A DNA stretch of 64,000 nt from an uncultured Clostridia bacterium (GTDB taxonomy: Bacteria; Bacillota; Clostridia; Oscillospirales; Acutalibacteraceae). Shown here in pieces: positions 25,943-64,000 of this stretch. The position numbers and the translations under genes are program-made. Positions within the stretch are counted from its first letter, which is position 1. Each line of letters starts with the position of its first letter. The DNA lies in assembly GCA_947589415.1 (NCBI GenBank), contig CANQBP010000002.1, positions 62,001 through 126,000 on the forward strand, in the 5' to 3' direction. The notes below the pieces were generated by a model. That model did no database searches. It was not told where the DNA came from and saw nothing but the letters and a program-made list of their open reading frames with translations.

Positions 25943-26236
25943 TTAGGCTTCTTTCTTAACGATCATTGAGCGGAGAACACCGTCTGTTATCTTTGCAACT
26001 CTGTCAAGCTCTGCCGGAAAAGCAGGCTCGGATTTAAAGTTGAAGAGAACATAGTAGGCGTCGGTTTCCTTATTTATCGGATAACAAAGCCTTCTCTTTC
26101 CCCATTCGTCAACACTTTCAACGGTAGCGTTCGTCTCAATGAGAGTTTTGAACTTACTTACGGTTTCAGCTACGGCCTCTTCGCCCTGTTTTAAAGAAAC
26201 TACGAATACGGCCTCGTAAGAATTTATAACTGTCAT
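25943..26236 (-). CDS. rpsF: 30S ribosomal protein S6
   Basis: A 97-residue S6 beginning MTVINSYEAVFVV, with the conserved KRRLCYPINKETDAYYVLFNF segment. The ATG at 26236 has AAGGAGG eight bases upstream. The leader holds a small GC-rich hairpin (GCTCC/GGGAGC around 26261-26276 on the minus strand) where S6:S18 leader elements often lie; identity with that element was not verified. Confidence 0.97.
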   Translation of the reverse strand: MTVINSYEAVFVVSLKQGEEAVAETVSKFKTLIETNATVESVDEWGKRRLCYPINKETDAYYVLFNFKSEPAFPAELDRVAKITDGVLRSMIVKKEA

Positions 26237-26311
26237 CTTCTGCACCTCCTTCTGGACTTTTGGCTCCCGCAGGAGCAAGGACTGAATGTTATGTAACTAC
26301 ACAACAGCTTG

Positions 26312-26340
26312 ATTATAACACTTTTGTTTTATTAAGTCAA
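26312..26340 (-). promoter_or_regulatory. Promoter of rpsF-ssb-rpsR
   Basis: On the minus strand TTGACT (26340-26335) and TATAAT (26317-26312) with a 17-base spacer, about 75 bases before rpsF. The rest of the gap to the restriction island (26341-26602) is AT-rich, with no gene seen. Confidence 0.85.
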
Positions 26341-26602
26341 GAGTTAAATTTTGATTTGCTTGTCCGATTTCTTAACATTTTTTACGAACATTTTTTAACA
26401 ACGAAAATCAGTATTACCATGAAAGATTATTATTGTCTGTTTTTACGATGCACAACGCAGATAAGGCAGTAAGGATTTTTTCTGCAAATGCGTTGTTCCC
26501 TATATACTGCTTTATTAAAGTGCGAAATAATATTACATAGATACGGGTGTTTAGTTTTTTAAAAATAGGCACGGTTTGTATAAATTTTTAAGTAATTGAA
26601 TA

Positions 26603-26642
26603 CACTTATTGTCTGTAGACTTTTAGTAGAATTATGTATAAA
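26603..26642 (+). promoter_or_regulatory. C-box operator and promoter of the restriction genes
   Basis: CACTTATTGTC (26603-26613), TGTA, GACTTTTAGTA (26618-26628). This matches the paired GACT-N3-AGTC half-sites separated by TGTA/TGTG known for C-protein operators. A TATAAA -10 at 26637-26642 places a poor -35 (TGTAGA) inside the operator, as in other C-dependent promoters. Confidence 0.75.
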
Positions 26643-26670
26643 CTTAAATTTGTTTAAGGGGGGTGCTTTA

Positions 26671-26886
26671 ATGGACATATTAAAGGTTTTTGGCAGTAAT
26701 GTTCGCAGATATAGGACGGCACTCGGAGTTTCTCAGGAAAAATTTGCGGAAATGTGTGGATTGCATCGCACATATATAAGTGATATCGAGAGATTTCAGC
26801 GTAATATTTCATTAGATAATATACAAAAAATAGCTGATGCACTTGGTATAGAAACCTACATATTATTTCAGGAGGAGAAAATATGA
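26671..26886 (+). CDS. Restriction-modification controller protein (XRE-type HTH)
   Basis: A 71-residue protein that is almost entirely an XRE-family helix-turn-helix: NVRRYRTALGVSQEKFAEMCGLHRTYISDIERFQRNIS. Size, family and position before an endonuclease gene match C-proteins, which activate their own gene and the endonuclease after delay. The C-box at 26603 supports this. AAGGGGGG precedes the ATG at 26671. It overlaps the endonuclease gene by four bases. Confidence 0.85.
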   Translation: MDILKVFGSNVRRYRTALGVSQEKFAEMCGLHRTYISDIERFQRNISLDNIQKIADALGIETYILFQEEKI

Positions 26887-27746
26887 GAAATATTATAAAG
26901 AATATTATTATAGAAGAATTTACAAACCTCACAAAATTAATCGAAGCAGACTTCTCTCGTAATTACAAGCGTAAGGTAAATAACTTTTTGCTTAGTCAAA
27001 TGGATGAGAAAGTAACAGCCAGTATGGTATTTGTAAGTAGTTTTGAATCTAAAAGCGGGTTTGCAATTGAAACTTGTGCAAAACGAATTGCGAGATTGAC
27101 ATTTGGTGAAGATAATGTTCCGACAATAGTAAACCCACGCAACCTGGATCATAACATAGACCCCCAAACTGTATCGGGGCAAATTGTTGTTACTGATGTT
27201 GACACAAATAACGGCAATCTGCGTGGAGAAATAGCAGCATTTAGGGCAAATAACGAATCAAAAAAACGAGGAAAAGAACACATCGAAAGCAGAGTAACAC
27301 ATGAAACATGCAGAACAATTCTTCTGCCTTTATCAGAAAAATATAAGTCTGACAAGATTTGTACAAAACCGGTGGATTTAGCCTTTTTTGATGGTACTAC
27401 ATGGAATGTAATGGAATTGAAATGCGGAGGTGATTTGGACAGTTCAAATGCTCCGTCTAATGTAGAAAAGTTATTGACAATTTACGTCGATATGGGAATT
27501 GAGAACTGCAAAGCATATTTTGCAACACTTTATAATAAAAACGGCGAGGGTAATAAATGGACAGGAGCTGTTAAAAAACATTTAAACTATCCGTCTATGT
27601 TTTTAATAGGAGCAAATTTTTGGCAGAAAATATTACCAAATGGAATAACGTTTTCTGATTTTATTGAAATATATCACCAATCCTTAGAAGAAATCGATCT
27701 GAACAAACATATAAATGATATGATAAATAACTGTATTGGAGAATAA
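26883..27746 (+). CDS. Type II restriction endonuclease, TdeIII-like
   Basis: A 287-residue protein with a PD-(D/E)XK-type core: KPVDLAFFDG followed by WNVMELKCGGDLD gives Asp, Glu and Lys. The segment after the core (YFATLYNKNGEGNKW) resembles what I recall of TdeIII-family endonucleases. Recognition sequence cannot be read. It overlaps the C-protein gene and is followed after two bases by a methyltransferase. Base composition is more AT-rich than flanking genes, which suggests transfer. I am confident it is the endonuclease of this locus, less so of the TdeIII label. Confidence 0.7.
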   Translation: MRNIIKNIIIEEFTNLTKLIEADFSRNYKRKVNNFLLSQMDEKVTASMVFVSSFESKSGFAIETCAKRIARLTFGEDNVPTIVNPRNLDHNIDPQTVSGQIVVTDVDTNNGNLRGEIAAFRANNESKKRGKEHIESRVTHETCRTILLPLSEKYKSDKICTKPVDLAFFDGTTWNVMELKCGGDLDSSNAPSNVEKLLTIYVDMGIENCKAYFATLYNKNGEGNKWTGAVKKHLNYPSMFLIGANFWQKILPNGITFSDFIEIYHQSLEEIDLNKHINDMINNCIGE

Positions 27747-27748
27747 AT

Positions 27749-28444
27749 ATGCCAAAACTCATCAACAATGATTGCTTAGAATATATGAAAACACTTCCGG
27801 ATCATTGTATAGATCTGATTTTAACTGATCCACCGTATAATATAGCCAAATATTCGACAGGTAATATTGCTTTGCCGTTCAGAAAACCTCTAAATAATAA
27901 TATTGCGGATTGGGACAATGTACAAATAGATCCAAAAGATTTTTTGTGCGACTTTAAACGAATTATAAAGACTGATGGCAATATTTTTATATTTACAAGT
28001 TATAATTTAATCGGAAAGTGGCATGAAGTTTTTGATAGTGAATTTGATACATTTCAATTTTTTATCTGGCATAAAACGAATCCTGCACCTAAAATATATA
28101 AAAATGGTTTTTTGAACAGTTGTGAAATGATTATTTGTCTTTGGAACAAAGGACATAAATGGAACTTTTCAAAGCAGAATGAAATGCATAATTTTTTTGA
28201 ATCGCCTATTTGTATGCCTCCGGAACGTCTGCAAAATCCAAAACATCCTGCACAAAAACCGGTGAAATTACTATCTCACATAATAAAAATTGCAAGTAAT
28301 CCCGGAGATATGGTTTTTGATCCTTTTATGGGAGTAGGTTCTACAGGAGTTGCAGCAAGAAATTGTGGCAGGTGTTTTATTGGTTGTGAAATTGATAAGA
28401 TATATTATGATGCGGCATGCCTTAGAATGGGATATTACCAATAA
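27749..28444 (+). CDS. DNA methyltransferase, beta class
   Basis: A 231-residue amino-methyltransferase in beta-class order: motif IV LTDPPYN near residue 27 comes before motif I FDPFMGVGSTG near residue 190. The DPPY form favours N6-adenine, although N4-cytosine enzymes of this class exist. It is coupled to the endonuclease gene (two-base gap). It probably protects one strand or form of the recognition site; a second methyltransferase faces it 78 bases away. Confidence 0.88.
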   Translation: MPKLINNDCLEYMKTLPDHCIDLILTDPPYNIAKYSTGNIALPFRKPLNNNIADWDNVQIDPKDFLCDFKRIIKTDGNIFIFTSYNLIGKWHEVFDSEFDTFQFFIWHKTNPAPKIYKNGFLNSCEMIICLWNKGHKWNFSKQNEMHNFFESPICMPPERLQNPKHPAQKPVKLLSHIIKIASNPGDMVFDPFMGVGSTGVAARNCGRCFIGCEIDKIYYDAACLRMGYYQ

Positions 28445-28522
28445 TATAAAAAATGTAAAATTTAAAAAATGAATCAAAATGCAGTTTGATCTAAAGTGAA
28501 AATAGGTGTTGGCATAACTTTA

Positions 28523-29650
28523 TTATTTTTCCATCGAAAGATTTGTTATTATTAGATGTTCGGTATCTCGTTCATTTCTGCTTCTTACATTGTAAGTATA
28601 TTTTTTATTAAAAAAAAGAACGTTGAAATAATCTTTATATAGTGAATAAATAAAGTCTGTATTTTTAATTATCAATATAAATTTAGCTTTTATATTTTTT
28701 AGGATTTTTGCCAGTCGTCGTTGGTCGTCAGAGTTAAAACTCCTTCCTTCGTAATTTGAAAATGTAGTGTCATATGGCGGATCTAAAAAAATAAAGTCGG
28801 TTTCGACCGGGGTTATTACTGAAAACAAATCTTCAAAATCCATACAATAAATATCCGTCCCGAAAAAAGTATCTACAGTATCAGATGAAAAAATATCATC
28901 AATTTTTGATTGTAAGTCCTTACGATTGTATGACATACCTCCATATGGAATGTTAAACTCACCATTATGATTATATCTGAACATAGAACCATAACAATAC
29001 TCTCGTATAAAGTAGAAATTAGCGGCTCTAAATTCTTTTTTTTCATCTATTCTTTTCAGCATAATATCGTTATAAATATCTCTAAAATACATATAAGTTC
29101 CGCTTGTGAAGCCGGTGATGAGATTTTCTTTTAAATCTTCTTTGCTGTAGGGATTTTTTTGTTCATTTTTTATTGTTCTTTTCATTTTATCTGCTACGTT
29201 AAATTGGATATGTTCTTTAAATTTATTAACGTCAAGAATTATATTTGTTGTTTGTAGTTGTGTGATTTTGTTTGTAATTTTTTCTATTATATCCATAAAA
29301 TTTTTGGAAATACAGTCATCTGTTTTTTTATTTTTTATTTGTGAATAAATATTTAATATATCATCATAGTGTTGATCGCAAATTGAAGTAGCACCTTTAA
29401 AAAGTGTACAATAAGCATAGAGATACATTTTAAAAACAGGGTCTTGTTCCTTTATAAGAGAATAAAAGTCCATTAGATTTACAGAAATATCATTTATTAC
29501 CGCAGATTTGGGCCTTAAATGGAAAAACATAGCTCCACCGCCAAAAAACGGCTCAATATATCTGTTGAAGTCCGGTATCAAATGTTCTATGTATTTTATT
29601 TCGTTGGCTTTACCTCCCGGCCATTTTATTAGTGTTTTTATATTACCCAT
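28523..29650 (-). CDS. Dam-like (D12 class) adenine DNA methyltransferase
   Basis: A 375-residue N6-adenine methyltransferase of alpha/D12 type. The AdoMet site is KWPGGKANEI plus FFGGGAMFF, and catalytic motif IV is FLDPPYDTTF. It is longer than E. coli Dam because of a Lys-rich helical insert in the middle. AAAGGAG precedes the ATG. It has its own consensus promoter, so it can be made independently of the C-protein, as protection requires when the genes enter a new host. Very AT-rich. Confidence 0.92.
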   Translation of the reverse strand: MGNIKTLIKWPGGKANEIKYIEHLIPDFNRYIEPFFGGGAMFFHLRPKSAVINDISVNLMDFYSLIKEQDPVFKMYLYAYCTLFKGATSICDQHYDDILNIYSQIKNKKTDDCISKNFMDIIEKITNKITQLQTTNIILDVNKFKEHIQFNVADKMKRTIKNEQKNPYSKEDLKENLITGFTSGTYMYFRDIYNDIMLKRIDEKKEFRAANFYFIREYCYGSMFRYNHNGEFNIPYGGMSYNRKDLQSKIDDIFSSDTVDTFFGTDIYCMDFEDLFSVITPVETDFIFLDPPYDTTFSNYEGRSFNSDDQRRLAKILKNIKAKFILIIKNTDFIYSLYKDYFNVLFFNKKYTYNVRSRNERDTEHLIITNLSMEK

Positions 29651-29722
29651 TTATTTTGGCTCCTTTACACATTTATATGCTTAATGTGATAAAACATATT
29701 ACGTCCGTTTTACGACTTCGAT

Positions 29723-29752
29723 ATTATACATTATCGTATAATTATATGTCAA
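29723..29752 (-). promoter_or_regulatory. Promoter of the Dam-like methyltransferase
   Basis: On the minus strand TTGACA (29752-29747) and TATAAT (29728-29723), 18-base spacer. No C-box is seen near it, consistent with constitutive expression. Confidence 0.82.
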
Positions 29753-29830
29753 TACTTTAATATTCACTAAAATAATCCGAATATCTTTTGTTCCATTGTT
29801 GACAGAATAAAATCATATTTTATAAAACAA

Positions 29831-29862
29831 CCCCGACAGATCGTATAAATGACCTGTCGGGG
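29831..29862 (-). terminator. Intrinsic terminator of galU
   Basis: CCCCGACAG/CTGTCGGGG, a 9-bp stem with a 14-base loop, followed on the minus strand by TTGTTTTAT. Confidence 0.85.
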
Positions 29863-29878
29863 GCTGTAATTTTTATGT

Positions 29879-30751
29879 TCAAAGCGTTGAAACGATTGTT
29901 TTTAAATATTCCTTGAACGGTTCGCCGAGTGTGGGATTTTTAAGCGCAATTTCAACAGTTGCCTGAAGTATTCCGAGTTTGTCGCCCATATCATAACGCT
30001 TACCCGTAAAGTCAACGCCTATCATGCCGCCTCCTCGTGCGAGAGTTCTCATTGCATCTGTCAGCTGAATTTCTCCGCCGGCACCGGGCTCTGTGTTATC
30101 GAGAATATCGAAAATATCCGGTGTGAGTACACATCTTCCGAGAATTGAATAGTAGGACAGGACTTCTTCTTTTGTACGGGGTTTTTCGACCATATCGGTA
30201 CAGTTGAATATGTTGTTTTCAATAGGATCTACTTTTAGAGAGCTGTACTTTGATATGGCATCTTCCGGTACGGATTTTATACCGACAACAGATTTTCCGA
30301 ATTTTTCATAAGCCCTTATAAGCTGACCGCAGGCAGGATCATCACCGATTATAACGTCATCACCGTAAAGTACGGCAAACGGTTCGTTACCTACAAAGGA
30401 ACGTGCGCAGTTTACTGCATGACCAAGCCCCTTTGTTTCCTTTTGACGAATAAAATAGAAATTTGCCAGTCGGGAAATATCGACGACTTGATTGTACATA
30501 TCGGTTTTTCCCGTATCGGAAAGCCTTTGTTCGAGTTCGGGACTGCGGTCGAAATGATCCTCAATAATGCCCTTGCCCCTGTTAGTGATGATAAGAATAT
30601 CCGTTATGCCTGATTTCACCGCTTCTTCAACTATATATTGAATAGCAGGTTTGTCAACGATAGTGAGCATTTCTTTAGGCATGGATTTTGTGGCGGGCAG
30701 AACTCTCGTACCCAATCCGGCAGCGGGGATAACCGCTTTTGTAACTTTCAT
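29879..30751 (-). CDS. galU: UTP-glucose-1-phosphate uridylyltransferase
   Basis: A 290-residue nucleotidyltransferase making UDP-glucose from UTP and glucose 1-phosphate. Motifs: IPAAGLGTRVLPATKSMPKEML at the nucleotide site (Gly-rich loop and Lys), VLYGDDVI, and GGGMIGVDFTGKRYDMGDK near the C-terminus. GGAGG lies before the ATG. UDP-glucose feeds cell-envelope glycans and glycogen-like pathways. Confidence 0.96.
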   Translation of the reverse strand: MKVTKAVIPAAGLGTRVLPATKSMPKEMLTIVDKPAIQYIVEEAVKSGITDILIITNRGKGIIEDHFDRSPELEQRLSDTGKTDMYNQVVDISRLANFYFIRQKETKGLGHAVNCARSFVGNEPFAVLYGDDVIIGDDPACGQLIRAYEKFGKSVVGIKSVPEDAISKYSSLKVDPIENNIFNCTDMVEKPRTKEEVLSYYSILGRCVLTPDIFDILDNTEPGAGGEIQLTDAMRTLARGGGMIGVDFTGKRYDMGDKLGILQATVEIALKNPTLGEPFKEYLKTIVSTL

Positions 30752-55022: not shown

Positions 55023-55154
55023 ATGACCGAATTGCGTGATTTGATGAGATTGGAATTGTGCGCCTATGCGGTCGGGGTATTTTTTGCATTATTTGTATTA
55101 TTGGAAAAATTGCTGTTTTTTGTTACTATTGACAAATTTATTATCGTGGAGTAA
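55023..55154 (+). CDS. Small membrane protein of 43 residues
   Basis: A short frame starting MTELRDLMRLELCAYAVG, then a single hydrophobic helix (about residues 15-37: VGVFFALFVLLEKLLFF), and an Ile/Val-rich end. GGGGGAG lies five bases before the ATG, an unusually good site for a chance frame. Its last codons overlap the -35 to -10 region of the ter promoter. No homologue is known to me; it could be a small stress-membrane peptide of the downstream locus (inference). Confidence 0.5.
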   Translation: MTELRDLMRLELCAYAVGVFFALFVLLEKLLFFVTIDKFIIVE

Positions 55155-55157
55155 AAT
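55129..55157 (+). promoter_or_regulatory. Promoter of the TerD locus
   Basis: TTGACA at 55129-55134 and TAAAAT at 55152-55157, 17-base spacer. The 150-base leader to terD includes the hairpin TACAC/GTGTA (near 55164-55180) and a long-range TTCCCG/CGGGAA pairing. Confidence 0.72.
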
Positions 55158-55312: not shown

Positions 55313-55921
55313 ATGAGCATAAGTTTGCAAAAAGGTCAGAAAATTAACCTTACCAAAAACGGAGGTCAGGGACTCAGAAAGGTCATGGTAGGACTCGGCT
55401 GGGACGAGGTGCAGAAAAAAAGACGGCTATTCTCAAAACAGGAGGAAGAGGATATTGACTGCGATGCATCTGCTATCTTATGCGGGGCTAACGGAAAAAT
55501 AATTCCCGGAAATGTGGAAAGCCATTGTGTTTACTTCGGAAATCTTACGCATAGCAGTGGTGCAATAGTTCATCAGGGCGATAATCTTACCGGTGCGGGT
55601 GAGGGTGATGACGAGCAGATAATGGTAAATCTTCCGCAAGTGCCGTTGAACATAGCAAAAATAGTGTTTGTTGTCAATATATATGATGCCTCTGTAAGAC
55701 ATCAGCATTTCGGAATGATAAAAAATGCGTTTATCCGTCTTGTGGATCTCGACACCAATACAGAGATATGCCGCTATGATTTGTCGAGTAATTATGATAA
55801 TATGACGGGACTTGTTGTCGGGGAAATTTACAGAAGAGATAACGAATGGAAATTCAGTGCAATAGGTCAGCCGGTACGTGAGGCAAGCAGACTTCAAAAC
55901 CTTATTCAGTTATATATATAA
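55313..55921 (+). CDS. terD: TerD-family protein, first copy
   Basis: A 202-residue TerD-domain protein beginning MSISLQKGQKINLTKN. The calcium-binding signature is IDCDASAILCG with GDNLTGAGEGDDEQ, and the end matches the family (VVGEIYRR-EWKFSAIG). It has an insertion of charged residues (about 33-47) relative to typical TerD. TerD proteins bind Ca2+ and belong to tellurite/stress response loci. GAGGAGG precedes the ATG. Confidence 0.95.
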   Translation: MSISLQKGQKINLTKNGGQGLRKVMVGLGWDEVQKKRRLFSKQEEEDIDCDASAILCGANGKIIPGNVESHCVYFGNLTHSSGAIVHQGDNLTGAGEGDDEQIMVNLPQVPLNIAKIVFVVNIYDASVRHQHFGMIKNAFIRLVDLDTNTEICRYDLSSNYDNMTGLVVGEIYRRDNEWKFSAIGQPVREASRLQNLIQLYI

Positions 55922-56147: not shown

Positions 56148-56732
56148 ATGGCAATCAGTTTAGTAAAAGGACAGAAGGTATCTTTGGATAACTCTCTTAC
56201 ACACGCATTGGTGGGTCTTGGCTGGGATACAAACCGTTATGACGGCGGATACGATTTTGACCTTGATGCATCGGTATTCCTGCTCGGAGAAAACGGAAAA
56301 CTTCAGAGGGACGAGGATTTTATTTTCTACAATAACCTTAGAAGCAGAAACGATGCTGTGGTTCATACGGGAGATAACCTTACCGGTGAGGGTGAGGGAG
56401 ATGATGAGGTCATAATGATAGACTTTACCAAAATACCCGATGATGTGAAAAGAATTGCGATATGCGTAACGATTTATGAAGCTGCCGAGCGCGGACAGAA
56501 TTTCGGACAGGTTTCAAATGCCTATATACGTATAGCAAAGTTGGCAGATGAATTTGATACGGTGGGAGAAACCGTATTAAAGTTCGATCTTGAGGAGGAA
56601 TTTTCCATTGAAACCGCATTGGTTGTTGCAGAAATATACAACAAAAACGGTCAATGGAGATTTAATGCCGTTGCCGGAGGATATCAGGGAGGATTGGAAG
56701 CTATTGTGCGTTCGTTCGGCGGCAACGTATAG
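56148..56732 (+). CDS. terD: TerD-family protein, second copy
   Basis: A 194-residue canonical TerD protein: MAISLVKGQKVSLD start, FDLDASVFLLG and GDNLTGEGEGDDEVI calcium loops, ending AVAGGYQGGLEAIVRSFG. It is closer to the family consensus than the first copy. The 226-base gap before it holds the dyad CCGTATA-A-TATACGG (56073-56087) and the hairpin TTCCCG/CGGGAA (56099-56115) but no gene. GGGAGG precedes the ATG. Confidence 0.97.
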   Translation: MAISLVKGQKVSLDNSLTHALVGLGWDTNRYDGGYDFDLDASVFLLGENGKLQRDEDFIFYNNLRSRNDAVVHTGDNLTGEGEGDDEVIMIDFTKIPDDVKRIAICVTIYEAAERGQNFGQVSNAYIRIAKLADEFDTVGETVLKFDLEEEFSIETALVVAEIYNKNGQWRFNAVAGGYQGGLEAIVRSFGGNV

Positions 56733-56807: not shown

Positions 56808-58109
56808 ATGAGAGAGTTTGTGAAGGGTCAAAAAATCAGAACACTGTCGGGCGGTGAACTTGAGGTTTTACAGAAGCTCGGAAACGGCGGTCAGGGTATA
56901 GTCTATAAGGTAAGATATAACGGAAGAGAGCTTGCACTTAAATGGTATTTTATAAATAAGCTCGGAGATCCCGATAAATTTTATCGGAACATTCAAAACA
57001 ACATAAAGCATGGCGCACCCGATAAAGCGTTTTTGTGGCCTCTTGAGATAACCGAATATTATGAGGGAAGCTACGGATATCTTATGGAATTAAGACCGCA
57101 GGAATATAAGGACTTTTCGCAATTTCTTCTTGCAAAGGAAAAATTCGGAAGTATAGGAGCTGTTATAAATGCTGCGCTTTGTATAACCAACGGCTTCCAT
57201 GAGCTGCACCGCAGCGGATTCAGCTATCAGGATCTTAATGACGGAAATTTCTTTGTTAATCCTAAGACGGGCGATGTCCTTATATGCGATAACGATAATG
57301 TTGCACCCTACGGGGAGAGCTTGGGCATCGCCGGAAAATGCAGGTACATGGCACCCGAAGTTGTAACGGGAAGAAAAAGACCCGATATACATACGGATCT
57401 TTTTTCGCTGGCAGTAGTACTGTATATGTTTTTGTTCCTCAATCACCCGCTTGAGGGAAAGAGGACGATGTGCCCGTGTCTGACGGAGGAACATGAACGC
57501 AGATTTTACGGTACGGAACCCGTATTTGTCTGGGATTCCCGTAATGATGCGAACAGACCTGTCAGGGGTGTTCATGTTAATGAAATAAAACTATGGTCGG
57601 TCTATCCCGAATTTATACGCAAAACCTTTGAAGAGGCTTTCGGAAAGGAACAGATGACGGGTACGGAAAGAGAACATAGAGTTAAGGAACGTACTTGGCA
57701 AGATGTATTTGTTGCCTTGAGAGATGTTACGGTTACTTGTCCGATATGCAGGGGCGAAACATTTGCGGATATTTCGGGAAAGCCGTACAAATGTATTAAC
57801 TGCGGGCGCAGTCTTTCGGCTGTATCCGTTATCAGGGTTAAAAATTACAATGTGGCTGCCCTGCCCGGAAAGAAGCTGTATTCATGTCATGTGATTTATG
57901 ACAGCGATGATTTTAAGGAAGTTAAGGGTGAAGTGGTTGCAAGCAGAAACGACCATTCAATAATCGGGTTGAAAAATCAGTCGGAAAATGTATGGACGGC
58001 AATATTGCCTAACGGTATGACAAAACCATATGAAACGGATAAGGTCATAAGACTCGTAAAAGGACTTAAAATAGATTTCGGACACGGCAATATCGCTGAA
58101 ATTATATGA
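56808..58109 (+). CDS. Ter-associated protein kinase with zinc ribbon
   Basis: A 433-residue Ser/Thr-kinase-like protein. The glycine loop is GNGGQGIVYKV and the ATP Lys is Lys45 (ALKWY). The catalytic loop is YQDLNDGNF (Asp142, Asn147), the metal Asp lies in ICDNDN in place of DFG, and MAPEVV is present. A C4 zinc ribbon follows (CPICRG, CINCGR, about residues 308-330), then a beta-rich C-terminal domain of unclear type. Together with the next two genes it forms the kinase/vWA/phosphatase triad known from ter loci. No membrane helix. Confidence 0.9.
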   Translation: MREFVKGQKIRTLSGGELEVLQKLGNGGQGIVYKVRYNGRELALKWYFINKLGDPDKFYRNIQNNIKHGAPDKAFLWPLEITEYYEGSYGYLMELRPQEYKDFSQFLLAKEKFGSIGAVINAALCITNGFHELHRSGFSYQDLNDGNFFVNPKTGDVLICDNDNVAPYGESLGIAGKCRYMAPEVVTGRKRPDIHTDLFSLAVVLYMFLFLNHPLEGKRTMCPCLTEEHERRFYGTEPVFVWDSRNDANRPVRGVHVNEIKLWSVYPEFIRKTFEEAFGKEQMTGTEREHRVKERTWQDVFVALRDVTVTCPICRGETFADISGKPYKCINCGRSLSAVSVIRVKNYNVAALPGKKLYSCHVIYDSDDFKEVKGEVVASRNDHSIIGLKNQSENVWTAILPNGMTKPYETDKVIRLVKGLKIDFGHGNIAEII

Positions 58110-58133: not shown

Positions 58134-58895
58134 ATGGGATTATATGACGATGTTGTGGAAGTTCCGAGAAGAACTATGGTATTGTTTTTCGTTGTTGATA
58201 CATCGGGAAGCATGAGCGGGGAGAAAATCGGCAAGGTTAATTTTGCAATAGATGAGATTGTGCCCGAGTTGAAAAAAATCTCCGAAAATAATGCCGATGC
58301 GCAGATTAAAATTGCTACGCTTACGTTCTCCACGGGTGCAAGGTGGATAGAAACCTCACCGGTTGCGGCAGAAAATTTCAGATGGAATTATCTTGATGCG
58401 GGCGGTGTTACGGATCTTGGCGAGGCGTGTAACCAACTGAACGAAAAACTTTCAAGAAACGCTTTTATGAGTGACGCTACGGGTTCTTTTGCCCCGGCAA
58501 TATTTCTTTTGTCGGACGGTGCGCCGACTGATAATTATAAACACGGTCTTGACAAGCTGAAACAGAATAACTGGTTCAAAAAAGCAATAAAAGTTGCGAT
58601 TGCGATAGGGGAAGATGCAAATACTAATGTTCTTGCGGATTTTACCGGTAATTCGGAGGCAGTGATAACAGTTCATACTCCGGAGGCACTTAAAAAATGG
58701 ATACAGTTTGTAAGCGTTCGTGCATCCGAAATAGGAAGTAAAAGCTCAAATGCAAATATAGGACTAACTTCCGAAAAAGACGGCGATGTTTGTGTGGGTA
58801 TCGAAAGTAAGCAGGACGAATTTGTAAATGATATAAAGGCGGAGGCAGCCGAACAGGGCGATTGGGATTCTTTTGACGATAATATACAGTGGTAA
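58134..58895 (+). CDS. terY: von Willebrand factor A protein, TerY-like
   Basis: A 253-residue cytosolic vWA-domain protein. The MIDAS metal site is intact: VVDTSGSMSG (Asp22, Ser24, Ser26), Thr in GGVTDLG, and Asp in LLSDGAP. The C-terminal 45 residues are acidic and probably flexible. TerY proteins act as scaffolds with the kinase and PP2C phosphatase of the same locus (known for the triad). It lies 24 bases after the kinase gene. Confidence 0.92.
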   Translation: MGLYDDVVEVPRRTMVLFFVVDTSGSMSGEKIGKVNFAIDEIVPELKKISENNADAQIKIATLTFSTGARWIETSPVAAENFRWNYLDAGGVTDLGEACNQLNEKLSRNAFMSDATGSFAPAIFLLSDGAPTDNYKHGLDKLKQNNWFKKAIKVAIAIGEDANTNVLADFTGNSEAVITVHTPEALKKWIQFVSVRASEIGSKSSNANIGLTSEKDGDVCVGIESKQDEFVNDIKAEAAEQGDWDSFDDNIQW

Positions 58896-58912: not shown

Positions 58913-60118
58913 ATGAATGCGAGATCCTTTCATTTATCCGTGCGAGGTTCAAACCATATAAAAAAAGACAAGGAATGTCAGGATGCTTCCGCAAGCTATT
59001 ATGATGACGACTGTGCGGTTGCGGTCGTCTGTGACGGTCACGGCGGTGACGACTATATAAGAAGTGCCGCAGGTTCAAAAATAGGCTGCACCGTTGCCGA
59101 GAAAAACATAAGGGATTTTATTCGGGACGCGGATATTGATACATTCCTCTCCGCCCCCGAAAGACATTTGAAAAATCTTGAGGCGAGTATAATAAACGAC
59201 TGGAACGAGTCGGTTGCCCGTTATCACGAACAAAATCCTTTTACCGAGGCTGAATTGAGTATTATTTCCCCCAAAGCAAGAAAAAAATATGTGGAATATA
59301 AAAATATAGAAAGTGCATACGGAACAACAATGATTGCCGTTGCCATGACCCGCAGGTATTGGTTCGGAATCCATATAGGCGACGGTAAATGCGTTGCCGT
59401 AAATTATGAAAGCGAGTTCAAGCAGCCCATACCTTGGGACGATAATTGTTTTTTAAATGTGACGACATCAATATGCGACTCCGATGCAATAGACGAATTT
59501 CGTTATTTCTGTTCGGAAAAGCTCCCCGCAGCGGTTTTTGTCGGTTCTGACGGAATAGACGACTGTTTCAGTAATAACCGACAGTTGAACGGTCTTTATA
59601 AAACCGTTTTGTATTCTTTTTCGGCATCGGATTTTGATGATGCCTGTCGGGGACTTGAGGATTATCTGCCGAGATTGTCCGAAAAGGGCAGCGGTGACGA
59701 TGTGTCTGTGGCTGCAATACTTGATATGGAGCGTGTGCCGTATTTGTCTGTGGTCAAAGAGTTTGATACGGAAAAGGAAAAGGCACGTATCAGAGAGAAT
59801 GAGCGCAGGAGAAACGAAGAAAACACATCACAAAAAATCAATATTGACGGGGAAAATAAAAAAATTGACGTACAGAGCAATACGGAAAGCGCAGAATGTA
59901 AGAAAAAACCGTTGTACTGTGAAGTATGTGGAAGGCAGATTAAAAACGGCGAAAAATTCTGTACCGAATGCGGTACTAAGGTTAAATACGGTACGGAAAG
60001 TACGGACGTTCCCGAAAATATCGGTATGGCGGCAGAAAAACTGCCCGTTAAAGTAAAAAGTGATTGCCGCATTGACGCTGAAAGCAATCAGAATGTCAAA
60101 CGGGAAACGGAAACATAA
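58913..60118 (+). CDS. PP2C-type phosphatase with C-terminal zinc ribbon
   Basis: A 401-residue protein. An N-terminal PP2C domain has metal residues in CQDASA and VVCDGHGGDDY (Asp41), FVGSDGIDD and GSGDDVSVAAI. A charged helical linker (about 285-345) leads to a zinc ribbon, CEVCGRQ and CTECGTK, near residues 340-360. It probably reverses the action of the upstream kinase. The ATG at 58913 has GGGGGAGG upstream. A terminator 59 bases after the stop closes the terD-terD-kinase-vWA-PP2C unit. Confidence 0.92.
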   Translation: MNARSFHLSVRGSNHIKKDKECQDASASYYDDDCAVAVVCDGHGGDDYIRSAAGSKIGCTVAEKNIRDFIRDADIDTFLSAPERHLKNLEASIINDWNESVARYHEQNPFTEAELSIISPKARKKYVEYKNIESAYGTTMIAVAMTRRYWFGIHIGDGKCVAVNYESEFKQPIPWDDNCFLNVTTSICDSDAIDEFRYFCSEKLPAAVFVGSDGIDDCFSNNRQLNGLYKTVLYSFSASDFDDACRGLEDYLPRLSEKGSGDDVSVAAILDMERVPYLSVVKEFDTEKEKARIRENERRRNEENTSQKINIDGENKKIDVQSNTESAECKKKPLYCEVCGRQIKNGEKFCTECGTKVKYGTESTDVPENIGMAAEKLPVKVKSDCRIDAESNQNVKRETET

Positions 60119-60176
60119 ACAGAGGTGTCCCCTATACGGGGCGCAAACATATCAGACTAAGCGGTTTTCGCTGAAG

Positions 60177-60216
60177 GCAGATATATCTTGTTTTGGTGAT
60201 ATATCTGCATTTTATT
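60177..60216 (+). terminator. Intrinsic terminator after the PP2C gene
   Basis: GCAGATATATC/GATATATCTGC, an 11-bp perfect stem with a 10-base loop, then ATTTTATT. It shows that the long open frame through here is not all coding. Confidence 0.88.
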
Positions 60217-60257: not shown

Positions 60258-61772
60258 GTGACGGATAATATTACAAACAGTAACGGTACAGGTTCATACG
60301 GCTGTTCGGATCCGAACGGACGTGAACAGAGCAAAAGAGATTTCCGAAATATAATTTTTAAAATAATGCGGGAATACGGCAATAATATAACGGAAGATAC
60401 CGAAAGGTTCAATGCTCTTCTTATGGACTTTGCTCCCGATATGTCAAAGGAACGTAAATTGATTATAAATGCCTTGAAAGAGGGTGTTCTGATACAGTTG
60501 AGAAGATGTATCGAAGAACACTGCGAAACGGCGGAGGAAGCGGCGGATAAATGTACCGCTATGCTTGTGTCCGAAATGTTCATTACGGAGGAGGCTGCAA
60601 GATACGCTGTCGGTATTATAGCGGACACCATGAAATTCGAGGACGGCAGCCGCAGTCGGGACGTTGATGTATGCGGCGAATGTTTGAACGGAAAACAACT
60701 GTTAAAGGGGCAAAAAATATTCGGCACGGTCGTAACCGAAAAAGATTTGAGAGAATATGACAGCATAGGATATAAAGCGTTTGCACTAAACAAAGAGCTT
60801 GAGCAGGTCAATATACCGGAGAATATTAAAAGTATTCGTCCGAAGGCTTTTTACGGCTGCCGAGCATTGAAAAGGGTGAGCATATCCGCAAAAACGGAGA
60901 AAATCGGGAGGGAAATATTTGACGGCTGTACGGCTCTTGAAAATATTGAAACGGCGGGAAACCCCAATTATTGCGTATGCGACAGTTTTTTTATTGACAG
61001 GAAGAATAAGGTGCTTATGAGATACATAAACAGCGGAGCAGAAACGGTAAGTGTTCCCGACGGTATTAAAACAATAAGCAGGAGGGCGTTTGAGGGGTCT
61101 GAACCGAAAAGCGTAAAAATCTCCGAATGTGTGGAAAAAATAGAGGATAAGGCTTTTTTTTATGCAGCGGATATCGAACGGATAGACACGGACGGCAGAA
61201 ATAAATCTTTTAGAAGTATTGACGGCGTACTGTACAGCCGTGACGGGAGGGAGCTTATATGCTATCCCGTGGGAAAGAGAGATACCGCTTATTTTGTTGA
61301 GGACGGGACGGTAAAAATCGGAAAGAGAGCTTTTGGAAATGCAGCGTTTCTTTCGGGGATAGTATTTAATAACAGTCTTAAAGAAATAGCGGAAAGTGCT
61401 TTTGAAAACTGCTGTGAGATTGAAAATATTATTTTGCCCGAAAGTGTGGAGCTTATAGGCGAGAGAGCATTTCGTTACTGCGAAAAAATGATAAGTGTTA
61501 TTTTACCGCATAATATAGTAAGAATAGGTGATTGTGCCTTTCAGGGCTGCCGCCGATTAAAGAGCATAAGTATTCCGAAAAACGTAAGGGAAATCGGTAA
61601 TATGGCTTTTATGGGCTGCGCTTCGCTTGAAAAAGCGGTTATACAGGAAAATGTTTCATTTATGGGAAATGAAGTATTTTGCGATTGCCCGAATATTGAG
61701 GTCACGGTAAAGGGAAACGAATATGCGGTCATGTATTGTAAGATGCATAAAATAAGATACAGCGTTGTGTGA
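60258..61772 (+). CDS. BspA-type leucine-rich-repeat protein with helical N-domain
   Basis: A 504-residue cytoplasmic protein. Residues 25-140 form a helical domain (FRNIIFKIMREYG, LLMDFAPDMSKERKLIINALKEG, AARYAVGIIADTM) that I have seen in front of diverse effector and scaffold domains in bacterial signalling proteins. From about residue 190 on there are roughly ten BspA/LRR_5 repeats (IPENIKSIRPKAFYGCRAL, LPESVELIGERAFRYC). There is no signal peptide, unlike most BspA proteins. GTG at 60258 is chosen because GGGGGA lies ten bases before and the upstream frame crosses the terminator. Likely a protein-binding component of the Ter system (inference). Confidence 0.82.
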   Translation: MTDNITNSNGTGSYGCSDPNGREQSKRDFRNIIFKIMREYGNNITEDTERFNALLMDFAPDMSKERKLIINALKEGVLIQLRRCIEEHCETAEEAADKCTAMLVSEMFITEEAARYAVGIIADTMKFEDGSRSRDVDVCGECLNGKQLLKGQKIFGTVVTEKDLREYDSIGYKAFALNKELEQVNIPENIKSIRPKAFYGCRALKRVSISAKTEKIGREIFDGCTALENIETAGNPNYCVCDSFFIDRKNKVLMRYINSGAETVSVPDGIKTISRRAFEGSEPKSVKISECVEKIEDKAFFYAADIERIDTDGRNKSFRSIDGVLYSRDGRELICYPVGKRDTAYFVEDGTVKIGKRAFGNAAFLSGIVFNNSLKEIAESAFENCCEIENIILPESVELIGERAFRYCEKMISVILPHNIVRIGDCAFQGCRRLKSISIPKNVREIGNMAFMGCASLEKAVIQENVSFMGNEVFCDCPNIEVTVKGNEYAVMYCKMHKIRYSVV

Positions 61773-61783
61773 ATTTATGAAAA

Positions 61784-62797
61784 ATGAGAAATGAAAGATA
61801 TTATTACAGTATTATGACTGCCGATGAGAAAAGCGCATACAGAATTATTTATGACGGTCTGAAAATGCGTTCATATAATATTTCTGCGGCTGTTCCTTTG
61901 TCACAAATTGATATGCAGGAAGTGTACCTCAAGGTGCTTTATGATAATCCGATGTTTTATTACGTAAACCAGACGGTTGTAAGAATGCGGGGAACGTTCG
62001 GTTATTGGGAACTGCTTCCCGAATATCTTTACACAAGCAGGGAAATAAGCATTATTAACAATGATATCAGGAATATTATACGTAAAATAAGAAATAAAAC
62101 GGCAGGATTTATAAATGACGAGTTTCGCCTCGAAAAATGTCTGCATGACAGTGTGGTGAGGAGTGTTGCGTATGACTACAATTCATTGAAAAAACAGGAT
62201 TCTTTCAATGCACACTCAATTGTCGGTGCATTTCTTGACAAACGTGCGGTATGTGAGGGAATAGCAAAGGCTTTTAAGCTGCTTTGCAACGAATTTGGCA
62301 TAAAATGCATTGTTGTGTTGGGAAAGGCTGATGAACGGGGTAATTTTGACGGCGGAGAGTATCATGCATGGAATTTGGTCAAGATACGAAACGAGTCATA
62401 TTATGTTGATGTTACATGGGATAATATGTACGAGGGAGAATTACAGCATATAAGCTATGATTACTTTAATGTCACGACCAAAGATATTATGCTCGATCAT
62501 CAGCCCATGGGGGATCTGCCGATATGTACCTCAACAGACCTTAATTATTTTCATTATACAAACAGTTTTGTAAGCACCTTCGGAGAACTGGAAACACTTA
62601 TAGACAAAAGACTCGGCTCGGATAAGATAATATTCAAGGCATTGAAAAATAAAGGACAGTTTATGAACCTCAAAGAATTGGAGAGAAAAACATATGAGGC
62701 TCTGATAAAAACTATGTTCAGAAGAATGTGTACAAGACCGTTTGCATTAGTTTTTAATGAAATGCATAATATTGGAAAGATATTTTTTGCAGGCTGA
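61784..62797 (+). CDS. Transglutaminase-like protease-fold protein
   Basis: A 337-residue protein with the transglutaminase-like core. The catalytic triad is visible as Cys157 (RAVCEGIAKAF), His194 (EYHAWNLVK) and Asp209 (YYVDVTWD). The N-terminal 110 residues are helical; the C-terminus (from about 260) is basic and helical. No signal peptide, so it would act in the cytosol on proteins. The start lies 11 bases after the LRR gene. Activity (protease, peptidase or cross-linker) cannot be told. Confidence 0.85.
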   Translation: MRNERYYYSIMTADEKSAYRIIYDGLKMRSYNISAAVPLSQIDMQEVYLKVLYDNPMFYYVNQTVVRMRGTFGYWELLPEYLYTSREISIINNDIRNIIRKIRNKTAGFINDEFRLEKCLHDSVVRSVAYDYNSLKKQDSFNAHSIVGAFLDKRAVCEGIAKAFKLLCNEFGIKCIVVLGKADERGNFDGGEYHAWNLVKIRNESYYVDVTWDNMYEGELQHISYDYFNVTTKDIMLDHQPMGDLPICTSTDLNYFHYTNSFVSTFGELETLIDKRLGSDKIIFKALKNKGQFMNLKELERKTYEALIKTMFRRMCTRPFALVFNEMHNIGKIFFAG

Positions 62798-62854
62798 TGA
62801 TAAGGGTAAAAAAGTAATATCGTAAGCAAAAGCTGATTTTGGGGAGTGTCGCAG

Positions 62855-63541
62855 GTGAAATTCAGAATTGTGGGAAATGTTGTTCCTGCCGTTGAGGTAC
62901 TTTTTGAACAGGCGGGAGAGGAAATGATAACCCAGTCGGGTGGTATGGCATGGATGTCGGACGGTATAACCATGACTACCGATACAAACGGCGGTGCATT
63001 GGCAGGACTCGGAAGAATGTTTGCGGGAGAAAGCATTTTTATGGCCCACTACAAAGCACAGAAGTCCGGAAGCGTGATTGCCTTTGCAGCAACAGTCCCC
63101 GGAAAAGTTGTACCCGTAAAGATGAGGGAATATCCGGGCGGTCTTATCTGCCAGAAAGGTGCATTTCTATGCTCGCAGTCGTCCGTCAGGCTTAATATAG
63201 AGTTTACAAGAAAATTATCATCGGGGCTTTTCGGCGGTGAAGGTTTTATCCTTGAAAAACTTAGCGGAAGCGGTGCGGCTTTTCTTGAGGTTGACGGTGA
63301 TGTTGTGGAAAAAACTCTCGGTGTCGGGGAGGTCATAAAGGTTGATACGGGAAATGTCGTTGCTTTCGAGAGCGGAATGAAATATGAAATTGAAACGGTA
63401 CACGGATTTAAAAATATTCTGTTCGGCGGAGAGGGATTGTTTTTAACAAGAATAACGGGACCGGGAAAGGTTATTTTACAGACACAGAATATAAGGGATT
63501 TCGCAAATTTGCTTTCGGGGATTATACCGAGGAATAATTAG
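62855..63541 (+). CDS. AIM24 family protein (TIGR00266-like)
   Basis: A 228-residue beta-rich protein with the AIM24/TIGR00266 pattern: GEEMITQSGGMAWMSDGI near residue 25, a Gly-rich GGALAGLGRMFAGES, GGLICQKGAFLCS and GGEGLFLTRITGPGKVILQT. The family is widespread, and its function is unclear. The start is GTG at 62855 with GGGGAG eight bases upstream. AIM24 proteins often occur near TerD and vWA genes. Confidence 0.9.
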   Translation: MKFRIVGNVVPAVEVLFEQAGEEMITQSGGMAWMSDGITMTTDTNGGALAGLGRMFAGESIFMAHYKAQKSGSVIAFAATVPGKVVPVKMREYPGGLICQKGAFLCSQSSVRLNIEFTRKLSSGLFGGEGFILEKLSGSGAAFLEVDGDVVEKTLGVGEVIKVDTGNVVAFESGMKYEIETVHGFKNILFGGEGLFLTRITGPGKVILQTQNIRDFANLLSGIIPRNN

Positions 63542-63554
63542 GAGTTGTGCAGAA

Positions 63555-64000
63555 TTGGATATATTTTTTTCGGATCTTGATAATACACTCATATATTCGC
63601 ATAACAGAAAAATGCTTTGTGAAAAGACGGCGGTGGAATATCTTAACGGGAGAGAACAAAGTTATATGACTTGCATGACATATAATTTTTTAAGAAATGC
63701 CGAATGGCTAAATCTTGTGCCTGTTACCGCAAGAACGGAAGAACAGTACAGGAGAATTAACTGCGCTGATGAATTGAATATAAAGTACGCCGTAATATGT
63801 AACGGCGGGAAACTGCTTGTAAACGGTAATGAGGACGAAAAATGGACGGCGGAAACACTTGAGCTTGTGTCCGAACAGCTTGGCGAATTTGAAAAGGCAG
63901 TCGATTTTTTCGGGAAAATTTGCGGAAAATCAAAAATACACAAACCGGAACCGTATATGGCATATGCTGTATCCGAAAATGCGGGTGAACTTTGCAGGAA
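63555..64000 (+). CDS. HAD-family phosphatase, cut by window end
   Basis: The first 148 codons of a haloacid-dehalogenase hydrolase that continues past the window. Motif I is DIFFSDLDNTLIYS, and motif II may be VPVTARTEEQY. The start is TTG at 63555 with AGGAG ten bases upstream, 13 bases after the AIM24 gene. HAD phosphatases belong to the nucleoside-like metabolite module described for ter loci, so PRTase, ATP-grasp or TerC genes may follow (inference). Confidence 0.82.
   Translation, partial: MDIFFSDLDNTLIYSHNRKMLCEKTAVEYLNGREQSYMTCMTYNFLRNAEWLNLVPVTARTEEQYRRINCADELNIKYAVICNGGKLLVNGNEDEKWTAETLELVSEQLGEFEKAVDFFGKICGKSKIHKPEPYMAYAVSENAGELCR

Follow-up and report, generated by a model that had tools for sequence, protein, structure and literature searches.

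A leucine-rich repeat (LRR) protein and a predicted transglutaminase-like thiol enzyme (TG), encoded side by side within a Ter operon of an uncultured Clostridia bacterium, form a conserved pair, and the AIM24 protein encoded directly after them is an optional, already known Ter partner. The operon lies in a stretch of 64,000 nucleotides, called here the window (assembly GCA_947589415.1, contig CANQBP010000002.1, positions 62,001 to 126,000; G000:C2:62001-126000 in our numbering, where G-numbers denote genomes, G000 being that of the window, and L-numbers the DNA stretches read). The pair is conserved in several families together with the triad of kinase, TerY and PP2C phosphatase (TerY-P), TG has invariant catalytic residues, the products seem to be cytosolic and the LRR gene is preceded by a conserved hairpin. 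We suggest, with a confidence that falls slightly short of even, that LRR and TG may act as a sensor-effector pair under the TerY-P switch, embedded in a full Ter operon.

The LRR-TG pair and its genomic linkage

The BspA-type LRR protein (60258..61772, + strand; LRR_5 E 4e-56), TG (61784..62797, +; PF01841 Transglut_core E 4e-10, 40.5 bits against a cut-off of 23) and the AIM24/TIGR00266 protein (62846..63541, +; PF01987 E 3e-66, TIGR00266 score 119 bits against a cut-off of 96.6) are encoded by three intact open reading frames (ORFs) after the triad, separated by 139 nt (PP2C-LRR), 11 nt (LRR-TG) and 57 nt (TG-AIM24), as the first-pass annotation had read them. The LRR ORF starts with a GTG preceded by GGGGGA, and by inspection a GTG at 62855, 8 nt past GGGGAG, is the likelier start of AIM24. 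The same annotation had claimed an intact Cys-His-Asp triad for TG and a cytosolic location for all three proteins, and both claims agree with our data. Cys157, His194 and Asp209 were found and are invariant in all 15 aligned TG sequences, the other 14 being 50-79% identical to that of the window; since 104 further columns, out of 107 invariant ones in total, are conserved equally, the catalytic residues are not singled out by invariance alone. Moreover, TG gives a profile match to a transglutaminase-like domain protein of known structure (PDB 9crn_A, E 2e-24, residues 4-268), in which Cys, His and Asp stand at matching positions. A crude 19-residue hydropathy test shows neither a signal peptide nor a membrane helix in LRR, TG or AIM24; the maxima are 0.96, 1.29 and 1.17, respectively, against 2.73 for a lipoprotein paralogue.

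In these gut bacteria, many proteins with BspA-type LRRs or a transglutaminase-like domain are exposed on the surface or secreted; it is extremely improbable that TG and LRR belong to them and came to lie in the operon by chance. Both superfamilies are indeed common, with some TG match in 56 of 60 relatives and many LRR matches. Yet the hydropathy test speaks against export, the LRR protein reaches 75 bits with the adhesin model HupY (cut-off 1250), the Ter-type TG is restricted among the 60 relatives to G021 and G024 (585 and 612 bits; next best match 99) and the neighbourhood data presented below contradict such an origin. Carriage of the Ter-type TG by phages or plasmids was likewise considered and not found, the best full matches being 31% identical in phages (14 records) and 28% in plasmids (6 records).

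A contig scan in which the TG alignment alone was used gave 14 loci, 15 with that of the window, coming from the two close relatives G021 and G024, Lachnospiraceae metagenome-assembled genomes (MAGs), Ruminococcus MAGs, one Clostridia MAG and [Eubacterium] yurii. All 15 have an LRR orthologue upstream of TG within one contig (14/14 from the TG-only scan); the two genes are adjacent or have one gene between them in 13 loci and are set apart in the other two (L079/L092, L080/L091) by an inserted type VII secretion system (T7SS) cassette of 9.8 and 11.5 kb. This linkage, together with that in the distant genomes treated below, rules out a chance neighbourhood. Kinase, TerY, PP2C and TerD are visible in 13/15 loci, and the contigs of the remaining two (L085, L088) start 236 and 680 nt before LRR. 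G021 has the same order of 12 genes, G024 the same order plus an ATP-grasp gene, and a TerY_C-like gene, Pfam-checked in one copy, is found between LRR and TG in 9 loci and elsewhere in a tenth.

The first-pass annotation had treated LRR, TG and AIM24 as a trio that should accompany TerD. This stands for LRR and TG and not for AIM24, which is next to TG in only 6 of the 15 loci, is absent from 6 and cannot be followed in 3, where the contig ends; in L084 it lies between LRR and TG, and in three other loci an ATP-grasp gene intervenes. A StiP search found 21 positive genomes among 398 of the phylum, and the 20 stretches fetched besides the window's contained AIM24 in 6 cases, one of them weak (36 bits, L075), and an LRR or TG of the window type in none. 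Absence of AIM24 on one side and its presence without the pair on the other rule out the trio as a unit; AIM24 and the HAD, lyase, phosphoribosyltransferase (PRTase) and StiP genes are a separate, known Ter layer.

Pairwise distances of kinase, TerY, LRR, TG and TerD over 13 loci correlate at 0.75-0.96 (LRR-TG, 0.94), and for no gene pair did any of 2000 permutations reach the observed value. Such correlations fit inheritance as a block and do not tell co-evolution from common descent. The proteins differ in how close they are to those of the window, with identities of 80-98% (second TerD), 50-79% (TG) and 30-58% (LRR). In a tree of TG sequences, [Eubacterium] yurii clusters with two Lachnospiraceae MAGs at modest support (83/84), a placement that hints at a possible transfer between families.

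The T7SS cassettes are worth a separate description. In the two Lachnospiraceae Ter operons they lie between LRR and TerY_C/TG (L092 9056-18772; L091 16784-20000 continued in L080 1-9904) and consist of an FtsK-type ATPase and WXG100-like proteins; in L092, one WXG100-like protein has a papain-fold domain resembling glutamine-deamidase toxins, and a Sel1 protein carries the adaptor-like domain discussed below.

Distant relatives beside BREX, nuclease and T7SS genes

A TG profile (cut-off 1e-50) run over 144 genomes around G455 matched 6, of which 2 were known and 4 new, and the four new TGs all have Cys, His and Asp at the aligned positions. Two of these (L130, L131) close an identical row on one strand, namely BrxL, LRR, a 168-aa gene, kinase, TerY, PP2C, TerY_C and TG, with no TerD match in the stretches read. 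In the DNA upstream of L131 (L134), PADLOC models identify BrxA, BrxB, BrxC, PglX and PglZ on the same strand, so that six BREX genes are matched and the LRR-TerY-P-TG cassette of this genome (G885) continues a complete BREX operon, presumably of type 1. The contig of L130 ends near BrxL, and an AAA_5 protein with a restriction-enzyme match lies 3′ of its TG. In L132, kinase (263 bits), TerY, PP2C and TG stand in a row; 5′ of it, one protein carries the adaptor-like domain (E 3e-7) and another is a DUF4011 helicase bearing an MTES_1575 nuclease domain. The presence of the kinase makes a sensor-effector role slightly more credible. In L129, TG lies by FtsK and WXG100 genes of a T7SS cassette, followed by a recombinase-like gene. 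We also observed by eye a gene of about 170 amino acids, starting with MGLLxxLFG and lacking a Pfam match, in both BrxL-linked and T7SS cassettes (L130 9365-9868, L131 14151-14657, L092 15980-16501). Between L130 and L131, BrxL and kinase are 98% and LRR 93% identical, and TG (L130 4887-5963, L131 9700-10785) is the most diverged at 81%; this would fit a faster-changing effector, as seen in a single pair of modules.

The window's own operon differs from the BrxL-linked loci in that no BREX gene occurs among the proteins tested: for 10 of the 12 (the second TerD and StiP left out) no Brx or Pgl match was obtained, except kinase to PglW at E 0.08. In a PADLOC scan the kinase resembles the defence kinases mad6 (E 2e-14) and PD-T4-6 (E 1e-12), with the kinase domain alone aligned. 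As for the literature, the papers cited here by PMC number were accessible in part, and what is said of them refers to those parts. There, the main text of a 2026 BREX survey (PMC12839542) makes no mention of TerY, LRR, PP2C or transglutaminase, the LRR-TG pair is not described in BREX and TerY papers (PMC11090510, PMC12458937, PMC10889362), and the matches listed for literature joining BREX and transglutaminase were unrelated.

The adaptor-like domain is the N-terminal part, about 100 residues, of the LRR protein (60339..60638, +), for which Pfam gave no confident match in 17 members (best E 0.01). Its only strong match among solved structures is 4rzp, an engineered helical protein (E 4e-10 over 44 positions), which has little bearing on kinship. 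A CxxC..CxxC zinc ribbon precedes the domain in 9 of 13 aligned LRR proteins; the window and its two closest relatives have a degenerate version, and L090 has none. With L130-L132 kept out of its construction, the profile of the domain picks up the LRR proteins in L130 and L131 (E 2e-10 and 3e-10; ORFs of 13 loci). A kinase search over 391 genomes of the class gave 6 positives including the window's, the other 5 loci being complete triads, and a protein with the adaptor-like domain adjoins the triad in 3 of these 5, combined with LRR in L101 and, by eye, with Sel1-like repeats in L100 and transmembrane tails in L099, where there are two such proteins. Of the 391 genomes, the adaptor profile was positive in 6. 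Four of these belong to the kinase-positive set of 6, rows from those 4 having been in the profile; the profile is not fully specific, as a weak match in G644 (E 3e-4) looks like RecX by eye. The domain is a wider one, often used by triad loci. The window's genome itself encodes a second protein with zinc ribbon and adaptor-like domain (L113 1-1417, G000:C37), which has a repetitive acidic tail and no triad in the 12 kb read.

Three lines of evidence favour a role in defence. First, relatives of the pair adjoin BREX, a restriction endonuclease (REase)-helicase and T7SS genes. Second, a TerY-P system protected P. aeruginosa PAO1 from phages (PMC10889362), and anti-phage activity of TerY-P is also reported in PMC11090510; the stand-alone systems of PMC10889362 share kinase, TerY and PP2C with our operon, yet are composed of three genes, with no LRR or TG named in the accessible text. 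Third, transglutaminase-like peptidases have been predicted as defence effectors: those fused to MTES_1575-type REase-helicases, the same type that neighbours TG in L132 with its DUF4011/MTES_1575 helicase-nuclease, are expected to cleave proteins (PMC3710099), and others are rare effectors of vWA-MoxR systems (PMC7159879; vWA, von Willebrand factor A). The MTES_1575-type fusions differ from our loci in being one giant HEPN fusion protein, and the accessible parts of PMC3710099 describe no TerY-P triad with them and do not join TerY to transglutaminase or LRR. Moreover, TerY-P with FtsK/WXG100 is on record (PMC11090510), and a vWA-kinase-phosphatase set is carried by T7SSc (PMC11217815). In these CoCoNuT and T7SSc loci the triad is likewise a module on another conflict or secretion system, comparable to the insertion of FtsK/WXG100 in 2/15 loci here, yet LRR and TG are not named as triad partners in the same excerpts.

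Nonetheless, several observations weigh against a sensor-effector pair controlled by the triad. The modules of L130 and L131 are related and count nearly as one event, LRRs were not demonstrated in the adaptor-domain protein of L132, and the 36.9 kb read around the TG of L129 contain no triad. TG is present in 0/5 of the other triads found by kinase, profile search included, which also excludes TG as a universal TerY-P effector. The adaptor-like domain occurs in L113, L114 and L115 with no triad in the stretches read, and cannot be considered exclusive to triads. Finally, the correlation of distances is also expected because the operon is simply inherited together.

The Ter operon and its hairpin

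The operon comprises 12 genes on the same strand: TerD, TerD, kinase, TerY, PP2C, LRR, TG, AIM24, HAD, C-C_Bond_Lyase, PRTase_2-TRSP and StiP-PELOTA. A promoter-like site, TTGACA-17-TAAAAT (55129..55157, +, 11/12 consensus), lies 5′ of the first terD, though the promoter scan, with 54 sites where shuffles average 34, was uninformative. The two TerD-domain proteins (55313..55921, +, PF02342 E 7e-70; 56148..56732, +, PF02342 E 5e-73) are followed by the triad, that is, a Ser/Thr protein kinase with the motif YQDLNDGN and two C-terminal CxxC pairs (56808..58109, +, Pkinase E 4e-16), a TerY-like vWA protein with the metal ion-dependent adhesion site (MIDAS) motif DTSGS (58134..58895, +, VWA E 4e-7) and a PP2C phosphatase with the motifs DGHGG and GDD and, at the C-terminus, CxxC pairs and a zinc ribbon (58913..60118, +, PP2C_2 E 9e-29, Zn_Ribbon_1 E 8e-6). 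We take the active-site motifs of kinase and PP2C and the MIDAS motif of TerY to be of the expected form. Behind AIM24, a HAD-family phosphatase (63555..64000, +) extends beyond the window end and is followed there by C-C_Bond_Lyase (PF15617), PRTase_2/TRSP and StiP/PELOTA. As four genes beyond AIM24 are on the same strand, the LRR, TG and AIM24 genes sit within a full Ter operon and not behind one, and a module at the end of the operon is ruled out. The TerD-TerD gap is 226 nt and the AIM24-HAD gap 13 nt; all gaps other than TerD-TerD and PP2C-LRR are of 0-75 nt.

A Ter stress-response system with a TerY-P triad was reportedly described by Anantharaman, Iyer and Aravind in 2012. The features of that system found in our operon are two TerD, kinase, TerY vWA and PP2C together, and biosynthetic genes. 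Papers citing the 2012 work name TerD, kinase-TerY-PP2C, PRTase, HAD and AIM24 as Ter components (PMC5822837, PMC11090510, PMC7824862), all of which our operon shares, and the Pfam families TerY_C and ATPgrasp_Ter take their names from the Ter system. What sets it apart from this system, as far as the partial texts go, is the LRR-TG pair and the conserved hairpin between the triad and the biosynthetic genes. The first-pass annotation knew of no described system of this composition. For the LRR-TG pair this agrees with our search, as no description of the pair with TerY-P was found in the searched, partly accessible literature, with the caution that the 2012 Ter paper may mention it; it does not extend to AIM24, whose position beside TerD had been reported (PMC5822837).

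The biosynthetic genes allow another explanation, in which TG would be an enzyme of the Ter metabolite pathway, trimming or transferring the amide-linked peptide that ATP-grasp, PRTase, lyase and StiP produce, with LRR as pathway scaffold. TG is directly upstream of the Ter ATP-grasp gene in 5/15 loci, and biosynthetic genes follow in the window's operon. Yet StiP is present in only 7/15 pair-bearing genomes, several being incomplete MAGs, neither TerD nor biosynthetic genes were matched in what was read of the BrxL-linked modules, and the Ter ATP-grasp, strongly matched in 5/15 pair-bearing genomes, has no match anywhere in the genome of the window, although the sister genome G024 keeps the gene. 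We therefore consider this explanation quite improbable. It is worth mentioning that a short ATP-grasp remnant with a stop lies between TG and AIM24 in G021 (L078, G467:C5:14922-15005).

Alternatively, the operon might serve a response to metal or protein-damage stress with no part in defence, LRR-TG removing or marking damaged cytosolic proteins under a metal-sensing triad. TerD, TerY and the zinc-binding motifs of several components agree with this, as do a P-type-ATPase-like gene 5′ of terD in 9/15 loci (not in the window's) and the description of TerY-P as a metal-sensing switch in PMC11090510, whereas the distant relatives of the pair lie next to BREX, REase-helicase and T7SS genes. On balance we regard it as unlikely, and the sensor-effector pair under TerY-P is kept as the working explanation.

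In the PP2C-LRR gap, a hairpin with a T-rich run resembling an attenuator or terminator (60176..60213, +) was identified by alignment and covariance model. It consists of GCAGATATATC, a 10-nt loop, the complementary arm and T-rich sequence, and such a match occurred in 0/100 shuffles. In the alignment of 12 loci, 142 of 144 pair cells are formed. Changes on one side alone affect 15 cells, each giving G-U, and changes on both sides affect 3; covariation is modest. In controls, the covariation score and the percentage paired are attained by 8/500 shuffles and the two measures counting pairs and types by 356/500 and 323/500, and slid versions pair at 15-68%. The covariance model places the hairpin at the same site in 14/15 loci, two of them outside model building; the exception is L090, where the PP2C and LRR ORFs overlap. 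At E up to 1 the model matched 0/20 StiP stretches and 0/5 other triads; the four distant-TG stretches have no match at that place (best E 0.006, elsewhere in L133), and chance-level matches with E near 0.6 occur elsewhere in the window and in L083. Rfam gave a single match over 55-64 kb of the window, with E 0.98 and under the gathering threshold. The hairpin as a unique element is weakened by a 32-bit match elsewhere in the genome, which resembles an ordinary terminator, as well as by the modest covariation. In L091 the PP2C-LRR gap is 57 nt, leaving no room for a promoter behind the hairpin, thus LRR must be read through it. We read the element as a putative attenuator or partial terminator, though it might instead serve to process or stabilise the RNA.

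Several neighbouring features were noted. 3′ of the operon (L005 14576-19018) lie genes for a zinc-ribbon protein, a DUF3592-like protein, a protein with acidic repeats and a lipoprotein of the transglutaminase-like type; G021 and G024, too, have a match to this lipoprotein behind the operon. A second Ter locus of the same genome (L006 3381-10920, G000:C10) has YceG, TelA, TerD, TerD-like and, by eye, P-type-ATPase-like genes on one strand. At 26001-30000 of the window, the G+C content is only 0.30-0.34, where most of the window has about 0.39-0.46, and the skew is altered as well.

Possible function of the pair

LRR most likely serves for recognition or as a scaffold, with the triad as the switch and TG as the enzyme acting on a protein. 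In such a scheme, the LRR array with its adaptor-like N-domain would recognise a danger state, such as a phage product or a damaged or metal-loaded protein, and would dock on the kinase-TerY-PP2C unit, where a change in phosphorylation may release or retarget TG to cleave, deamidate or cross-link a cytosolic protein. The hairpin would keep LRR-TG expression low; TG would be the output, phosphorylation the control and defence the aim. The idea of a sensor-effector set, put forward in the first-pass annotation with AIM24 included, gains from the BREX-, nuclease- and T7SS-linked relatives and has to be narrowed, since AIM24 is not a member.

A broader and more doubtful possibility is that of a portable immune cassette, in which the adaptor-LRR protein would be the sensor, TerY-P the phospho-switch and the cytosolic transglutaminase-like enzyme the executioner, the whole being bolted by bacteria onto Ter, BREX and T7SS operons and, in the Ter form, expressed through the conserved attenuator. 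If this is true, the cassette would be, in outline, a bacterial counterpart of LRR-receptor/kinase/protease signalling. The pair may be seen as a new variant in the TerY-P world, for which the links with defence are suggestive. The mechanism of Ter has long been unclear, and the LRR-TG pair offers a tangible effector candidate that has one catalytic cysteine; together with the candidate regulatory RNA element, this candidate would make the output of the TerY-P switch testable.

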